Source of the DNA: Bradyrhizobium sp. NP1
GTDB taxonomy: Bacteria > Pseudomonadota > Alphaproteobacteria > Rhizobiales > Xanthobacteraceae
Reading direction: 5' to 3'
Assembly (NCBI RefSeq): GCF_030378205.1
Contig: NZ_CP127385.1
Location: 6,364,001-6,428,000 of the forward strand
Length of the DNA stretch: 64,000 bases
Shown here piece after piece: positions 4,147-39,389 of this stretch. The notes under the pieces are model-generated. The model searched no databases. It had not been told where the DNA came from and saw nothing but the letters and a program-made list of their open reading frames with translations. The translations under genes were made by a program, and so were the position numbers. Position 1 is the stretch's first letter. Each line of letters opens with the position of its first letter.

Positions 4147-4191
4147 CCTCTAGAATTGCTCCCGTCAGGGCAGTTTTCGGGGGTTTTCTCC

Positions 4192-4440
4192 ATGGGTATT
4201 CTTGCGGCACTGGTGATCGGAGCGATTGCAGGCTGGCTCGCCGGGCTGATCGTGCACGGCGCGGGCTTCGGCCTGATCGGAAACATCGTGGTCGGCATCA
4301 TTGGCGCGCTGGTCGCGAGCTGGATCCTGCCGCAACTCGGCGTCAGCCTGGGGTCAGGCACCACGGTTCGCGACATCATCAACGCCACGATCGGCGCCGT
4401 CATCGTGCTGGTGATCCTGTCCCTGGTCAGGCGCGCCTAG
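4192..4440 (+). CDS. GlsB/YeaQ/YmgE-type stress membrane protein
   Basis: An 82-aa, almost wholly hydrophobic protein with three membrane segments. It has the Gly-rich pattern of the transglycosylase-associated family: ILAALVIGAIAGWLAG, then IVVGIIGALVASWIL, and a last helix ending in LVRRA. It is an inner-membrane protein of unknown mechanism linked to stress responses in related bacteria. The ATG at 4192 is chosen because it puts the first helix at the N-terminus; a frame-compatible ATG at 4156 would add 12 unlikely residues. A terminator-like hairpin sits just upstream. Confidence 0.85.
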   Translation: MGILAALVIGAIAGWLAGLIVHGAGFGLIGNIVVGIIGALVASWILPQLGVSLGSGTTVRDIINATIGAVIVLVILSLVRRA

Positions 4441-4541
4441 CGCATTCCCCCATTCCGGCGACGAGGCTGTTTTGGCCGAGATTTCCTGTTAAGGCAGGAA
4501 CAATCGCGAACGCGCTTTTTAAGGGAACAGGCGGATACTGG

Positions 4542-5384
4542 ATGAAATTCACCGGCACCAAGGACTATGTCGCTACTGACGATCTCAAGGTCGCGGTCAA
4601 CGCCTCGATCGTGCTCGAGCGCCCGCTGCTCGTGAAGGGCGAGCCCGGCACCGGCAAGACCGTGCTCGCCGAGGAGGTTGCGAAAGCGCTCGGCGCGCCG
4701 CTCCTCACCTGGCACATCAAGTCGACCACCAAGGCGCAGCAGGGCCTCTACGAATATGACGCGGTGTCGCGCCTGCGCGACAGCCAGCTCGGCGACGCCA
4801 GGGTGTCCGACATCTCGAACTACATCAAGCGCGGCAAATTGTGGGACGCGTTCACCTCCGAGAAGCGGCCGGTGCTCCTGATCGACGAGATCGACAAGGC
4901 CGATATCGAGTTTCCCAACGACCTGCTGCTCGAGCTCGATCGCATGGAGTTCTTCGTCTACGAGACCGGCGAGAACATCAAGGCGAAGCTGCGCCCGATC
5001 GTGATGATCACCTCCAACAACGAGAAGGAGCTGCCGGACGCCTTCCTGCGCCGCTGCTTCTTCCACTACATCAAGTTCCCCGATGCCGACACCATGGTGC
5101 GGATCGTCGACGTGCATTTCCCCGGGATCAAGAAGCGCCTGGTCGAGGAAGCGCTGCGCATCTTCTTCGAGGTGCGCGAGGTGCCCGGCCTGAAGAAGAA
5201 GCCGTCGACCTCGGAGCTGCTCGACTGGCTGAAGCTTCTGCTCAACGAGGACATCACGCCGGAGATGCTCAGGGAACGCGATCCGCGCAAGCTGATCCCA
5301 CCGCTGCACGGCGCGCTGCTCAAGAACGAGCAAGACGTGCACCTATTCGAGCGGCTGGCGTTCTTGAGCCGGCGCGAGGTATAG
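4542..5384 (+). CDS. MoxR-family AAA+ ATPase
   Basis: A 280-aa single AAA+ module. Walker A is GEPGTGKT (residues 33-40), Walker B VLLIDEIDKAD (about 109-119), and sensor 1 lies around VMITSNNEKELPDAFLRR, which also includes the arginine finger region. These ATPases act as chaperones that insert cofactors or remodel complexes together with VWA proteins. The CoxE-like VWA gene stands divergently on the far side of the small GlsB-like gene, so the pair probably works together. The client is not encoded next door. A PQQ-type dehydrogenase elsewhere in the window is one speculative client. Confidence 0.9.
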   Translation: MKFTGTKDYVATDDLKVAVNASIVLERPLLVKGEPGTGKTVLAEEVAKALGAPLLTWHIKSTTKAQQGLYEYDAVSRLRDSQLGDARVSDISNYIKRGKLWDAFTSEKRPVLLIDEIDKADIEFPNDLLLELDRMEFFVYETGENIKAKLRPIVMITSNNEKELPDAFLRRCFFHYIKFPDADTMVRIVDVHFPGIKKRLVEEALRIFFEVREVPGLKKKPSTSELLDWLKLLLNEDITPEMLRERDPRKLIPPLHGALLKNEQDVHLFERLAFLSRREV

Positions 5385-5415
5385 CCCGACGCACGACCGG
5401 CTCAGCCGCGCTTCA

Positions 5416-7071
5416 TCACACGCCGGCGACGACGCTGTCCGGAATGCGCGCGGCCTCCGGCGGCGCCTTGCCGCGGATCAGGTCACTGGCGCGGTCGGCG
5501 ATCATCATCGTGGACGCGTTGAGATTGGCCGAGATCATGCGCGGCATGATCGAGGCATCGATCACGCGCAGGCCTTCGAGGCCATGCACGCGGAGCTGGT
5601 CGTCAACCACGGCCCAGTTCGTGCCGGCCGGTCCCATCCGGCAGGTGCAGCCGGGATGGAAGGTGGTGGTGCCGCGCTGGGTCGCCGCCGCCAGGAACTC
5701 GTCGTCCGACTGCACGTTCGGCCCGGGAAAATCCTCATAGGCGTAGTAGGGCGCGAGCGGCACCGACTGCAGCAGCCGCCGCGCCAGCTTCATGCCGGCG
5801 ACGACGACGCGGCGGTCAAGCTCGTGGCCGAGATAGTTGGTCTGGATCACAGGCGCCTCGAACGGATCGGCGGAGCGGATACGAACATAGCCGCGCGCCT
5901 CCGGGCGCTGCTGCCAGGAAGCGACCGTCATGCCCGGCTCGTCCTCGAGCTGGCCCTGCACGCCCTCTTTGTAGCTGGCCGGCGTGAAGGTCAGCTGCAG
6001 GTCCGAGCTCTCGGTGGTCTCGCCGGAATGCCAGAAGCAATAGACCATGGTCGGCGACAGCGACAAAAGTCCGCGCCGCGTGGTCGCCCATTTCAGGGCC
6101 TCGACCCAGAGATGCCAGCCCTGGCGAAGCTGATTGATGGTCTTGATGTTCTTCACCCGCGCCACCGAGCGTGGCGCGTAGTGGTCCTGCAATCCCTCGC
6201 CGACGCCTGCGAGCGCATGACGTACCTCGATGCCGTGCGCGCGCAGCAATTCCGGTGAGCCGACGCCCGAGAGCTGCAGCAGCTGCGGCGAGTTGTAGGT
6301 GCCGCCGGAGAGGATCACCTCTTTCCTCGCGCGCACCTCGACCGGCGTGCCGCCCTTGCCACCCTGCATGTAGCGCACGCCGACCGCGCGCTTGCCCTCG
6401 AAGACGATCTCGGTCGCATGCGCATGCGTGCGGACGCTGACGTTGCCCCGCCTGCGCGCCGGATGCAGGAACGCGGTGGCGGCACTGACGCGCAGGCCCT
6501 TTTGAATGGTGCGCTGGGCGTAGGAAACGCCCTCCTGGATCGCGCCGTTATAGTCGGGGTTGCGCGGGATGCCGAGGCTCATCGCGCCCGCCATGAAGGC
6601 CTCGCACAGCGGGTCCTTCCAGTCCATGGTGGTGACGACCAGATTGCCGTCACGCCCGCGATAGGTGTCCTCGCCCTCGCCGACGCGCCGCTCCAGCCGC
6701 TTGAAATAGGGCAGCACGTCGGCATAGCCCCAACCGCGATTGCCGAGCTGCGCCCAGGTGTCGAAATCCTGGCGCTGGCCGCGGTTGTAGATATGACCGT
6801 TGATGGAGGACGAGCCGCCCAGCGTCTTGCCGCGCGGCGCATAGATGCTGCGGCCGCCGGTATAGGGACCTACCTCCTGCTGGTAGGCCCAGTTGATGCT
6901 TCGCATGTGGAAGGTCTTGATGAAGCCGGCCGGCAGATGAATGTAGGGATGCCAATCCTTCGGCCCGGCCTCGAGCACGCAGACCGTGGTGGCCGGATCT
7001 TCGCTCAGCCGATAGGCGAGCACGCTGCCGGCGGAACCCGAACCCACGATCACATAGTCGAAAATATCCAT
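5416..7071 (-). CDS. GMC-family FAD oxidoreductase (choline dehydrogenase-like)
   Basis: A 551-aa flavoprotein of normal GMC length. The FAD-binding Rossmann motif YVIVGSGSAGSVLAYRL lies at the N-terminus, with the second signature RGKTLGGSSSINGHIYNRG around residues 80-98. The C-terminal domain has the catalytic His in FHPGCTCRMG and the closing RVIDASIMPRMISANLNAS. It oxidises an alcohol with FAD; the substrate is not readable, and choline dehydrogenase names for such proteins are often transfers by similarity. It is the last gene of a minus-strand run with a GNAT acetyltransferase and an SMP-30 lactonase. Confidence 0.88.
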   Translation of the reverse strand: MDIFDYVIVGSGSAGSVLAYRLSEDPATTVCVLEAGPKDWHPYIHLPAGFIKTFHMRSINWAYQQEVGPYTGGRSIYAPRGKTLGGSSSINGHIYNRGQRQDFDTWAQLGNRGWGYADVLPYFKRLERRVGEGEDTYRGRDGNLVVTTMDWKDPLCEAFMAGAMSLGIPRNPDYNGAIQEGVSYAQRTIQKGLRVSAATAFLHPARRRGNVSVRTHAHATEIVFEGKRAVGVRYMQGGKGGTPVEVRARKEVILSGGTYNSPQLLQLSGVGSPELLRAHGIEVRHALAGVGEGLQDHYAPRSVARVKNIKTINQLRQGWHLWVEALKWATTRRGLLSLSPTMVYCFWHSGETTESSDLQLTFTPASYKEGVQGQLEDEPGMTVASWQQRPEARGYVRIRSADPFEAPVIQTNYLGHELDRRVVVAGMKLARRLLQSVPLAPYYAYEDFPGPNVQSDDEFLAAATQRGTTTFHPGCTCRMGPAGTNWAVVDDQLRVHGLEGLRVIDASIMPRMISANLNASTMMIADRASDLIRGKAPPEAARIPDSVVAGV

Positions 7072-7129
7072 CGTTGCAGCCGTTCCCGTCGTGACGCGAC
7101 TTGTCGCAAACCCGGCGCCGCTGCGGCGA

Positions 7130-7738
7130 TCATTCGCGCAGCTTCTCGCTGAGCTGGTAGGTCAGATGCGCCTTCACCGTCGGCCATTCGGCCGCGATGA
7201 TGGAATAGACCACGGTGTCGCGCAGCGTGCCGTTCGGCGCGATCTGGTGGCTGCGCAGGATGCCGTCCTGCTTGGCGCCCAGCCGCTCGATGCCGCGCCG
7301 GCTCTGATGGTTGAAGAAATGGGTACGGAACTCGACCGCGATGCAGTCGAGCTTTTCGAACGCGTGCGTGAGCAGCAGGAGCTTGCATTGGGTGTTGAGC
7401 GCGGTGCGCTGCACCCGCTTCGTGTACCAGGTCGAGCCGATCTCGACACGGCGGTTGGCCGCATCCACGTTCATGTAGGTGGTCATGCCGGCGATCCTGC
7501 CGTCGGCGTCGAACGCCGTGAACGGCAGCATCGATCCCGCCGCCTGCAGGCCGAGCCGGCGCTCGATCTCCTTGCCCATGGTCTCGGGCCGCGGGACAGA
7601 CGTGTACCAGAGCTTCCACAGCTCGCCGTCCCGCACTGCCTCCACCAGCCCGTCGCGATGCTCATGCGACAGCGGCTCGAGCCTTGCATGCGGGCCGCGC
7701 AGGGTGACGGGTTGAAGCCAGCTCATCGATCGATCCAC
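7130..7738 (-). CDS. GNAT family N-acetyltransferase
   Basis: A 202-aa protein of the RimJ/RimL-like branch of GNAT: the N-terminus MSWLQPVTLRGPHARLEPLS is typical, and acetyl-CoA-site elements appear around RVEIGSTWYTKRVQRTALN and the helix FEKLDCIAVEFRTHF. The first in-frame start is GTG at 7738, directly abutting the stop of the upstream SMP-30 gene (TGAGTG); an ATG at 7726 is the alternative. The zero spacing suggests translational coupling. The acceptor of the acetyl group is unknown. Confidence 0.83.
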   Translation of the reverse strand: MDRSMSWLQPVTLRGPHARLEPLSHEHRDGLVEAVRDGELWKLWYTSVPRPETMGKEIERRLGLQAAGSMLPFTAFDADGRIAGMTTYMNVDAANRRVEIGSTWYTKRVQRTALNTQCKLLLLTHAFEKLDCIAVEFRTHFFNHQSRRGIERLGAKQDGILRSHQIAPNGTLRDTVVYSIIAAEWPTVKAHLTYQLSEKLRE

Positions 7739-36151: not shown

Positions 36152-37744
36152 TCACGACGCCAGCGCAGTCCGCAGCATCCGAGCGAGATCGGAGCTGACA
36201 TAAGGCTTCGCCAGCAGCAGCACGCCGGCGTCGAGGCGGCCATGATGCACGATCGCGTTCTCGGTATAGCCGGACGTGTAAAGCACCTTGAGTTCGGGGC
36301 GCCGCTTCAATGCTTCGGCGGCGAGCTGGCGGCCGTTCATGCCCCCGGGGATAATCACGTCAGTGAACAGCAGATCGATGCGCTCGCGACTGTCGATGAT
36401 TGCCAGCGCTTCAGCGGCATTGCCGGCGGCCAGCGTGCGGTATCCAAAGCGGCCGACATGCGTCACGACGTATTCGCGCACCAGGGCGTCGTCCTCGACG
36501 ATCAGGATCGACTCGTCGCCGTGCTGGTCCCCGAGGATGCTGGTCTCGGCAGTCAATGCTTCCGGCGCACCCGTGCACGCGGGCAGGTACAGCTTCACGG
36601 TGGTGCCGTGACCCTCCTCGCTGTAGATCTTGATATGCCCGTTCGACTGTTTGACGAAGCCGTAAACCATGCTGAGACCGAGCCCCGATCCCTTGCCGAC
36701 GTCCTTGGTGGTGAAGAAGGGTTCAAACACCTTGTCGAGCAGGCTCGCGGGGATTCCTTCGCCCGTGTCGCTGACCGCGATCATGACGTAGCTGCCGGGC
36801 TTAACCTCGCTGTTCATCCTGGCGTAGTCCTCGTCGAGCACGGCATTCCTGGTTTCAAGCGTCAGCTTGCCGCCGTTCGGCATGGCGTCACGCGCATTCA
36901 GCGCCAGGTTCAGGATCGCGGTCGAGAGCTGGCTCGGATCGATCAGGGCCGGCGCGGGATCGTGCGCCAGCATCGATTCGATCTCGACGTGTTCGCCGAG
37001 GGTCGGTCGCAGCAACCGTGCTGCGTCAACGACGAGGGCGTTGACGTCGGTGCTGCGCGGCTGCAGCGGCTGTTGACGGGAAAAGGCGAGCAGATGCCGG
37101 GTGAGGTCAGCGCCCCTGGCCGCCGCGGCGCTGATCAGGTTGGCGATCTCGGCGAGAGACGGACGATCCTTGACCGCGTCGCCGAGGATTTCGATGGTGC
37201 CGGTGATGACAGTCAGAATGTTGTTGAAATCGTGCGCGACGCCGCCGGTGAGCTGGCCGATGGCTTCCATCTTCTGCGATTGCCGGAGCTGGGCCTCGCT
37301 GGCTTCCATCTCCTGAAAACGCTGGACCATGGCTTCGGCGTTGCGCCGCTGCCTGGTTTCCTCCTCGAGGGCGGCATAAGCCTGCTGAAGCTGGATGCGC
37401 GTCGGCAGCACCAGGATCCGCGGCAGCATCAGCAGCAGTGCGACCATCATCGCGATCGAGATCAGCGCCAGCAGGCCCTTGGCAACCGCCTCGACCTCGT
37501 AGGCGGGCACCCACAGGGTGAGGATCGCCAGCAGGCGGGTCACCCCGCAGACGGCTGCGAAGACGGCGAATGTCCAGAATACGCTGCCGAACATGACATC
37601 GCGCCGGCGCCGCCACACGAAGAATCCGAGCACGAACGCGGTGGTGAAGAAGGCGCCTGCGAGCAGCGCGTCGGAAACGGCATTCAACCAGATCAATTCC
37701 GGCTTCCACAGCAAGGAGGCGCCATGCGGGGTGAACGTCGACAT
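36152..37744 (-). CDS. Hybrid sensor kinase with ethylene-receptor-like membrane domain
   Basis: A 530-aa protein. Three membrane helices (about residues 18-43, 52-78, 87-113) resemble the ethylene-binding domain of plant ETR1: D25 in NAVSDALLAGAFF and C66 in FAAVCGVTRLL match ETR1 D25 and C65, but the copper-ligand His of ETR1 is Arg (R70). A coiled coil (116-157) leads to the dimerisation domain with phospho-His H171 (GGVAHDFNN), an ATPase domain (NLALNARDAM, DTGEGIPAS, GSGLGLSMVYGFV) and a receiver domain with D462 in FTDVIIPGG. The ATG at 37744 follows GGAGAGA. It thus combines membrane sensing, kinase and receiver. The ligand is unknown. Confidence 0.88.
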   Translation of the reverse strand: MSTFTPHGASLLWKPELIWLNAVSDALLAGAFFTTAFVLGFFVWRRRRDVMFGSVFWTFAVFAAVCGVTRLLAILTLWVPAYEVEAVAKGLLALISIAMMVALLLMLPRILVLPTRIQLQQAYAALEEETRQRRNAEAMVQRFQEMEASEAQLRQSQKMEAIGQLTGGVAHDFNNILTVITGTIEILGDAVKDRPSLAEIANLISAAAARGADLTRHLLAFSRQQPLQPRSTDVNALVVDAARLLRPTLGEHVEIESMLAHDPAPALIDPSQLSTAILNLALNARDAMPNGGKLTLETRNAVLDEDYARMNSEVKPGSYVMIAVSDTGEGIPASLLDKVFEPFFTTKDVGKGSGLGLSMVYGFVKQSNGHIKIYSEEGHGTTVKLYLPACTGAPEALTAETSILGDQHGDESILIVEDDALVREYVVTHVGRFGYRTLAAGNAAEALAIIDSRERIDLLFTDVIIPGGMNGRQLAAEALKRRPELKVLYTSGYTENAIVHHGRLDAGVLLLAKPYVSSDLARMLRTALAS

Positions 37745-38644: not shown

Positions 38645-39301
38645 TCAGGAGCACTCGTCGCAGCACGCCTCGCCTTCCCAAGCCTCGCGTCCCTCGCGAA
38701 CCAGGAACCAAACGATCCCAAGCGATGCGACCGGGTCCAGCCACCAGGCATCCACCCAAAATTGCGCCGCCAGGGCGCCCACCACGACGAAAGCAAGCCA
38801 GCCGCAGGTGACGCTCTCGATCGCGTCCGCACGAAGAGCGCGGCTGCCCAACGCCTCTGCGAGCCGAAGCTTGCGCCGAGAAAGGGCATACATGATCGGA
38901 ATCGCCAAGCTACTGACGATGAGACCCACAGACGAGAATTCGGCGCCTTGCCGAGTCCACAACTTCCAACCCGCACCAGCCACGACATAGATCGCCAGGG
39001 CAAACAGCAGGACCGCCCCAATCCGCGACGCCGTTCGCTCTGCATGCTCGGCGAACACTTCACCGTGCCGAAGCTCGACGTTGAGCCGCCACAACAGAAC
39101 GCCCGCAGACGCAAGTTCGATCAGGCTATCGATGCCAAACGCGGTGAGAACCAGACTGCCGGCCACAAGCCCAGACGCGATCGCCACCGCGGCTTCGATC
39201 GTCATCCAGGCAACGGTCAGATATTCGAGCTGAAAGGCCTGCGATATCAGCGCAGATCGTTCGGTCCCGCTCGAGGTAGCACCTATATTGAACATAGGCA
39301 T
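38645..39301 (-). CDS. Cation transporter, CDF-like
   Basis: A roughly 218-aa membrane protein with about five to six helices. It has the helix-2 signature LTAFGIDSLIELASAGVLLW and, near the end, LRADAIESVTCGWLAFVVVG, which match the two Asp-containing metal sites of cation diffusion facilitators in a shortened form without the cytosolic domain. It ends ACCDECS, three cysteines that could bind metal. The start is ATG 39301 (MPMFNIG) or 39313. Metal specificity (Zn, Co, Fe) cannot be told. Confidence 0.75.
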   Translation of the reverse strand: MPMFNIGATSSGTERSALISQAFQLEYLTVAWMTIEAAVAIASGLVAGSLVLTAFGIDSLIELASAGVLLWRLNVELRHGEVFAEHAERTASRIGAVLLFALAIYVVAGAGWKLWTRQGAEFSSVGLIVSSLAIPIMYALSRRKLRLAEALGSRALRADAIESVTCGWLAFVVVGALAAQFWVDAWWLDPVASLGIVWFLVREGREAWEGEACCDECS

Positions 39302-39389
39302 TCCGGCTGCCAAACCCTCATGACGTCTCAGCTTAACTGGAATCGTGTGACAGCCAAGCCGGCGAGCTGAACTTGTCAGCCAATAATCA

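Follow-up and report, generated by a model that had tools for sequence, protein, structure and literature searches.

An ethylene-receptor-like hybrid kinase of Bradyrhizobium whose membrane domain appears to have lost its copper site but not selection

What is left for an ethylene-receptor-like membrane domain to do when the histidine that should hold its copper ion has become an arginine? The question is raised by a gene in a 64,000-nucleotide stretch ("the window") of the Bradyrhizobium sp. NP1 genome, which is 7.7 Mb in a single contig; near relatives of its product, P0002, that carry names are also Bradyrhizobium. A sequence-only reading had described the protein as a hybrid kinase with an ETR1-like N-terminus and a ligand His changed to Arg, and had suggested that the domain might bind another ligand, use the remaining Cys alone or signal constitutively. 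The domains found and R70 support this description, and the ends of the gene were placed correctly (Table 1), the start codon being set by alignment with homologues of similar length and by a Shine-Dalgarno-like GGAGAG nine bases upstream of the ATG.

Table 1. Features of the P0002 gene, in window positions
Feature	Residues	Position	Strand	Basis or remark
Hybrid histidine kinase P0002	530 aa	36152..37744	-	ATG at 37744, stop ending at 36152
ETR1_N (PF25487), three-helix domain	16-111	37412..37699	-	Pfam-A; genome G000:C1:6401412-6401699
CGVTR motif, replacing CGxTH	66-70	37535..37549	-	read from sequence
HisKA region, H171 in HDFNN	163-225	37070..37258	-	Pfam-A
HATPase_c	269-389	36578..36940	-	Pfam-A; best structure match CckA, 5idj
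Receiver (Response_reg), phospho-acceptor D462	413-524	36173..36508	-	Pfam-A

All four domain matches exceed Pfam's cut-offs. The ETR1_N match, the only PF25487 match in the genome, scores 78 bits where the cut-off is 27 (E 6.7e-22, Pfam-A), so the likeness to the ETR1 domain that had been read by eye is far above chance. The C-terminal part has the phospho-acceptor H171, the HATPase_c domain and, as noticed earlier, the receiver of its own that together make a hybrid histidine kinase; among 120 relatives the H171 place is His in 119 with one gap, the D462 place Asp in 110 with ten gaps, and the kinase and receiver motifs are intact. Like ETR1, SynEtr1 and AzoEtr1, P0002 has an N-terminal three-helix domain of the PF25487 type before a histidine kinase. 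It differs from them in its own receiver, in its CckA-like kinase and in that a Pfam-A scan of it gave no GAF or PAS match, and it is known here by sequence. The HisKA/HATPase core is 41% identical to that of CckA (PDB 5idj); we take the solved piece of 5idj to be DHp-CA only, and the sensor region of CckA to be different. A related kinase is found behind another input: a Bradyrhizobium hybrid kinase (L175) is about 70% identical over kinase and receiver, or up to 72% for a relative, its input being MASE4 plus PAS, unlike the ETR1_N of P0002.

Which of the residues that matter in ethylene receptors are still present? Seven are counted here (D25, Y32, I35, P36, I62, C65, H69), Y32 being one that we presume to belong. 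D25 and C65 are named as needed for ethylene in the available part of PMC11819568, and I35, P36, I62, C65 and H69 in that of PMC6586836. ETR1 numbering equals that of P0002 up to residue 36, and ETR1 I62, C65, H69 and K91 fall on 63, 66, 70 and 89, assignments read from numbering and spacing; the spacing in AzoEtr1 (D35, C75, H79, K98, in the part available of PMC11819568) agrees, except that D25 and C66 are farther apart by one residue. At the places of interest P0002 has N21, D25, F32, T35, A36, A63, C66, R70 and K89. It thus keeps two of the seven, D25 and C66, both at homologous places to those of ETR1, and has F32, T35, A36, A63 and R70 at the other five; AzoEtr1, according to the same excerpt, has all seven. 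Of the Cu(I) ligand pair, Cys65 and His69, the Cys is present and the His is Arg. D25, C66 and R70 (CGVTR) stand where the sequence-only reading put them, and the His-to-Arg change on which it turned is real, but it is one of five replacements made together and held in a clade.

From this pattern we infer that the domain would have no useful affinity for Cu(I) or for ethylene: P0002 probably senses ethylene no longer, which bears out the earlier suggestion that it had ceased to work as an ethylene receptor, and may respond to something else. A bacterial protein above the PF25487 cut-off is easily called an ethylene receptor; since P0002 lacks five of the seven residues and is the sole match of its genome, that call would probably be wrong here.

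The survey of CGxTH and CGxTR proposed earlier can be read from two sets of nearest relatives, neither of them a sample of the family: an Arg set, the best 120 of 516 matches to P0002 residues 1-128 (query included), and a canonical set, the best 120 of 1206 matches to the canonical paralogue L029. In the canonical set D25, Y32, I35, I62, C65 and H69 are each present in all 120 proteins and P36 in 119, so that 119 carry all seven. In the Arg set place 70 is Arg in 117 and His in 3, and the other replacements are F32 in 113, T35 in 117, A36 in 119 and A63 in 104; D25 is present in all 120, as is N21, at a place that is His in the 120 canonical proteins, and K89 in 114. Two ethylene residues are retained in 103 of these proteins (P0002 and 102 others), one in 12, three in 4 and four in 1. 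The sequences thus show that five of the seven residues were replaced and that the new ones are conserved in the clade.

One possibility is that Cu(I) is nevertheless still bound, through Cys66 together with D25 or some other ligand, and that ethylene or another pi-ligand is sensed with altered affinity. Arginine is a poor Cu(I) ligand and adds a positive charge, and the places of Y32, I35, P36 and I62 have changed as well. Both C66 and D25 are kept in P0002, and in 108 and 120 of the 120 relatives respectively; the part available of PMC12643061 names Asp25, Cys65 and His69 as the copper site, and a model of ETR1 has the copper on C65 and H69 with infrequent contact to D25 (PMC6586836, in the part available). 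The Cys is, however, less constant than the Arg: it is Ser in 11 of the 120 and Gly in 1, all 12 of which have Arg at 70, and across L066, L069, L070 and one copy in L172 the place is Ala, Ser, Phe and Gly, again with the Arg kept. Use of the Cys alone is accordingly disfavored, and continued binding of Cu(I) seems quite improbable.

Where does the Arg form come from? Within Bradyrhizobium, 101 of 146 genomes have a PF25487 match and 28 of the 146 a member of the Arg clade, ten of these 28 also holding a canonical CGxTH copy, which was read in each of the ten; all genus matches below 100 bits were read, plus 36 of the 83 over 125 bits, the other 47 being taken as canonical by score. Matches were found in 50 of 248 genomes of the family, 42 of 297 of the order and 29 of 398 of the phylum, sets that overlap and include genus members; 60 regions came from the family and order surveys and 27 new loci from the phylum survey. 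The 247 loci together yielded 173 domain matches and, from these, 160 distinct domains, in which place 70 is His in 103, Arg in 36, another letter in 17 and a gap in 4, counts that are not frequencies because low-scoring matches were favored in the sampling.

Of the 160 distinct domains, 152 went into a quick tree, eight being too short and the trait columns being masked; its columns are few, its branches long, and 26 of its 149 inner branches starred. It puts the clade on a starred branch (SH-aLRT 100, length 0.62) among canonical Bradyrhizobium domains. The clade has 32 rows with Arg, a single row with His (L172) and a single one with Cys (L075); the Arg rows outside it fall elsewhere. The kinase-receiver core, compared also over 155 rows, gave a more careful tree of 47 chosen rows, in which the clade (20 rows, among them both L172 copies) has support of 100/98, starred, and its sister is canonical L011, L072 and L173 (97/93, starred). 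These trees show descent beside canonical CGxTH kinases. The three sisters carry all seven ethylene residues, and L011 has the same domain set as P0002.

Clade and sisters are 53.8% identical in the sensor and 71.8% in kinase plus receiver, the reverse of the order seen when the sisters are compared with ten other canonical proteins (79.3% and 52.6%), which places a burst of sensor change on the stem of the clade. Within the clade, 16 chosen genes are 80.8% identical in the sensor and 85.0% in kinase plus receiver, with dN/dS of 0.27 and 0.15; canonical sensors have 0.22 among the ten and 0.06 among the three sisters. The Arg70 codon varies silently only over 30 distinct clade domains (CGC in 21, CGG in 5, CGT in 4). 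Together with the clade dN/dS, this marks renewed constraint: the sensor is again under purifying selection, of a strength below that on its kinase and on canonical sensors.

Another possibility is that the domain is decaying and that His-to-Arg, a change of one base from CAY to CGY, is neutral and drifts in it. CAT or CAC to CGT or CGC is indeed a single transition, and His is found in 3 of the 120 relatives and in one of the L172 tandem copies. Against this, Arg stands in 117 of the 120, its codons vary silently only, and it recurs on other branches (L109, L110, L118 and L101, weakly resolved) and in 6 of the 8 matches to the L109 query; drift is very improbable.

The more serious rival is that the domain is a signal-blind relic, a membrane anchor and dimerizer for a kinase that is constitutive or controlled by partners or by the receiver it carries. 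Most ligand residues have been lost, presence is patchy at 28 of 146 genomes of the genus, dN/dS is higher in the sensor than in the kinase or in canonical sensors, the L050 copy is broken (a frame break separates its sensor from its kinase), and L069, L070 and L075 are eroded as well. Nor does the P0002 gene have common neighbors: of its nine neighbors in the window, compared with Arg-clade flanks, one 115-codon frame has weak matches (46-51%) in L068, L070 and L170 and the other eight match nothing near other Arg-clade genes, and in an all-against-all comparison of 33 loci, in which up to nine other loci have common neighbors, no common neighbor family includes the window locus. An anchor has no need of polar residues within the membrane, yet N21 and D25 are kept in 120 of 120 relatives, R70 and T35 in 117 and K89 in 114, and the Arg codon changes are silent in all 30 domains. 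Several observations are about equally compatible with a relic and with a new sensor: the spread of the class-diagnostic positions (below), the broken L050, the His70 cases and L070. The conserved polar residues within the helices tip the balance towards function, and a relic is rather unlikely.

The reading we favor, and consider fairly probable, is that P0002 is a paralogue of the ethylene-receptor-like hybrid kinases of bacteria, one whose pocket for Cu(I) and ethylene has been dismantled and the new form held constant; the domain would best be read as kept for a copper-free intramembrane signal module. Counted against it are the sensor dN/dS, the broken L050, the absence of an acid at 25 or 89 in L070, and His70 in three relatives and one L172 copy. 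The change concerned the whole domain, in view of two results. A lining of the pocket face by the substitutions was considered and is not supported: class-diagnostic positions are spread round the helices (p 0.07, 0.17 and 0.68 for helices 1, 2 and 3). Nor are the ethylene residues significantly in excess at such positions (5 of 7 compared with 22 of 68; p 0.09).

What might the new site look like? The AlphaFold2 model of P0002 (mean pLDDT 67.1; 57 to 74 only for ten-residue blocks over 11-120) has, with moderate confidence, the three helices expected from the sequence-only reading, at 15-46, 53-78 and 82-111, of which the first carries D25 and the second both C66 and R70, separated by one turn; the model of a canonical protein is likewise of moderate confidence. 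In the model the distance of D25, R70 and K89 from helix ends is 7-10 residues; these ends would be on one side of the membrane, and the three residues at about equal depth. Among the 50 matches listed, Foldseek with this model showed kinases; no PDB entry was matched with residues 1-132 as the query, and in a whole-protein profile search of structures the best 60 of 298 matches were to kinase and receiver, none to the ETR1_N domain.

If the fold is kept, R70 would be beside D25 and K89, and a permanent charge at the copper-ion place is a plausible role for it. In the canonical domain D25 has been modeled as positioning H69 and bonding K91 (PMC11819568, in the part available). On the favored reading, R70 would sit in the place of the ion and pair with D25 in a buried cluster of polar residues, close to K89; this cluster would hold the three-helix dimer and couple some change in the membrane (another small hydrophobic ligand, redox or membrane state) to the kinase; CckA-like autophosphorylation of H171 might then be followed by transfer to D462 and on to a phosphotransfer partner. 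The salt bridge in place of Cu(I) is an inference from a model of moderate confidence, and D25, being common to both classes, is by itself no argument for it. An acid at 25 or 89 is found in 35 of 36 distinct Arg rows and in 10 of 17 rows whose place 70 is not His or Arg, a covariation that is weak because canonical His rows nearly all have D25 and because the rows are related. In its favor, L069 has G25 with D89, and six L109-type proteins all have Glu at the K89 place, three of them without an acid at 25; L070 stands against it.

Could the same switch have been made elsewhere? The L109 query found eight proteins, six of which share Cys and Arg with Glu at the K89 place, the two weakest lacking this pair of Cys and Arg. 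L109 and L110 have Ala at the P36 and I62 places, keep the Cys, replace His by Arg and have Glu at the K91 place. Of the six (P0242-P0247), two are named Ancalomicrobiaceae and five have an HWE kinase domain. The Arg version of L109, L110 and P0242-P0247 looks like a parallel change of their own. A wider reading, which we offer as a tentative possibility, is that the fold which binds ethylene serves in general as an intramembrane sensor and has been switched more than once from a Cu(I)/ethylene site to an Arg-centered, metal-free one, the clade sensing another membrane-soluble cue through an N21/D25/T35/R70/K89 network. In these sister paralogues the kinases are similar while the copper site is present in one and absent from the other, which offers a natural experiment on signaling by this domain and on whether a fixed charge can replace copper.

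The Arg-bearing clade goes unmentioned in the available parts of PMC11819568, PMC6682694, PMC6586836, PMC7700396, PMC6944256 and PMC12643061, and among the papers listed from an open-licence library no title or abstract opening describes it, although a description may be in print elsewhere; nothing on H69R in ETR1 with ethylene was found in that library.

A few further observations may be of use. A search for ACC deaminase gave one match only, below the cut-off (246.5 of 392 bits). A cation-efflux family gene (PF01545; window 38645-39313, minus strand) lies near the kinase, with an opposite-strand open frame between them, and is absent from the flanks of the other Arg-clade kinases compared. 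Residue 10 of P0002 (window 37715-37717, minus strand) is Ser, where 117 of 120 relatives in the Arg set, and all 120 in the canonical set, have an N-terminal Cys before helix 1; a lone Cys there has been suggested to link the dimer of cyanobacterial receptors (PMC6682694, in the part available). L172, a Bradyrhizobium MAG, has two Arg-clade hybrid kinases in tandem (4173-5777 and 5878-7596), one with G66/R70 and the next with C66/H70 but F32 and A36. Distant PF25487 domains from the family and order (L102-L107, L116, L117, L135-L137) have lost both copper ligands, and their charges are rearranged at places 25, 70 and 89. Canonical genes were matched in pieces in L071 and, for one gene, in L072. 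Short frames of 213-263 aa with a CGxTH domain are found in L084 and L087-L091; in L084 and L089, the domain scan showed beyond that domain only the start of a HisKA_2 match.
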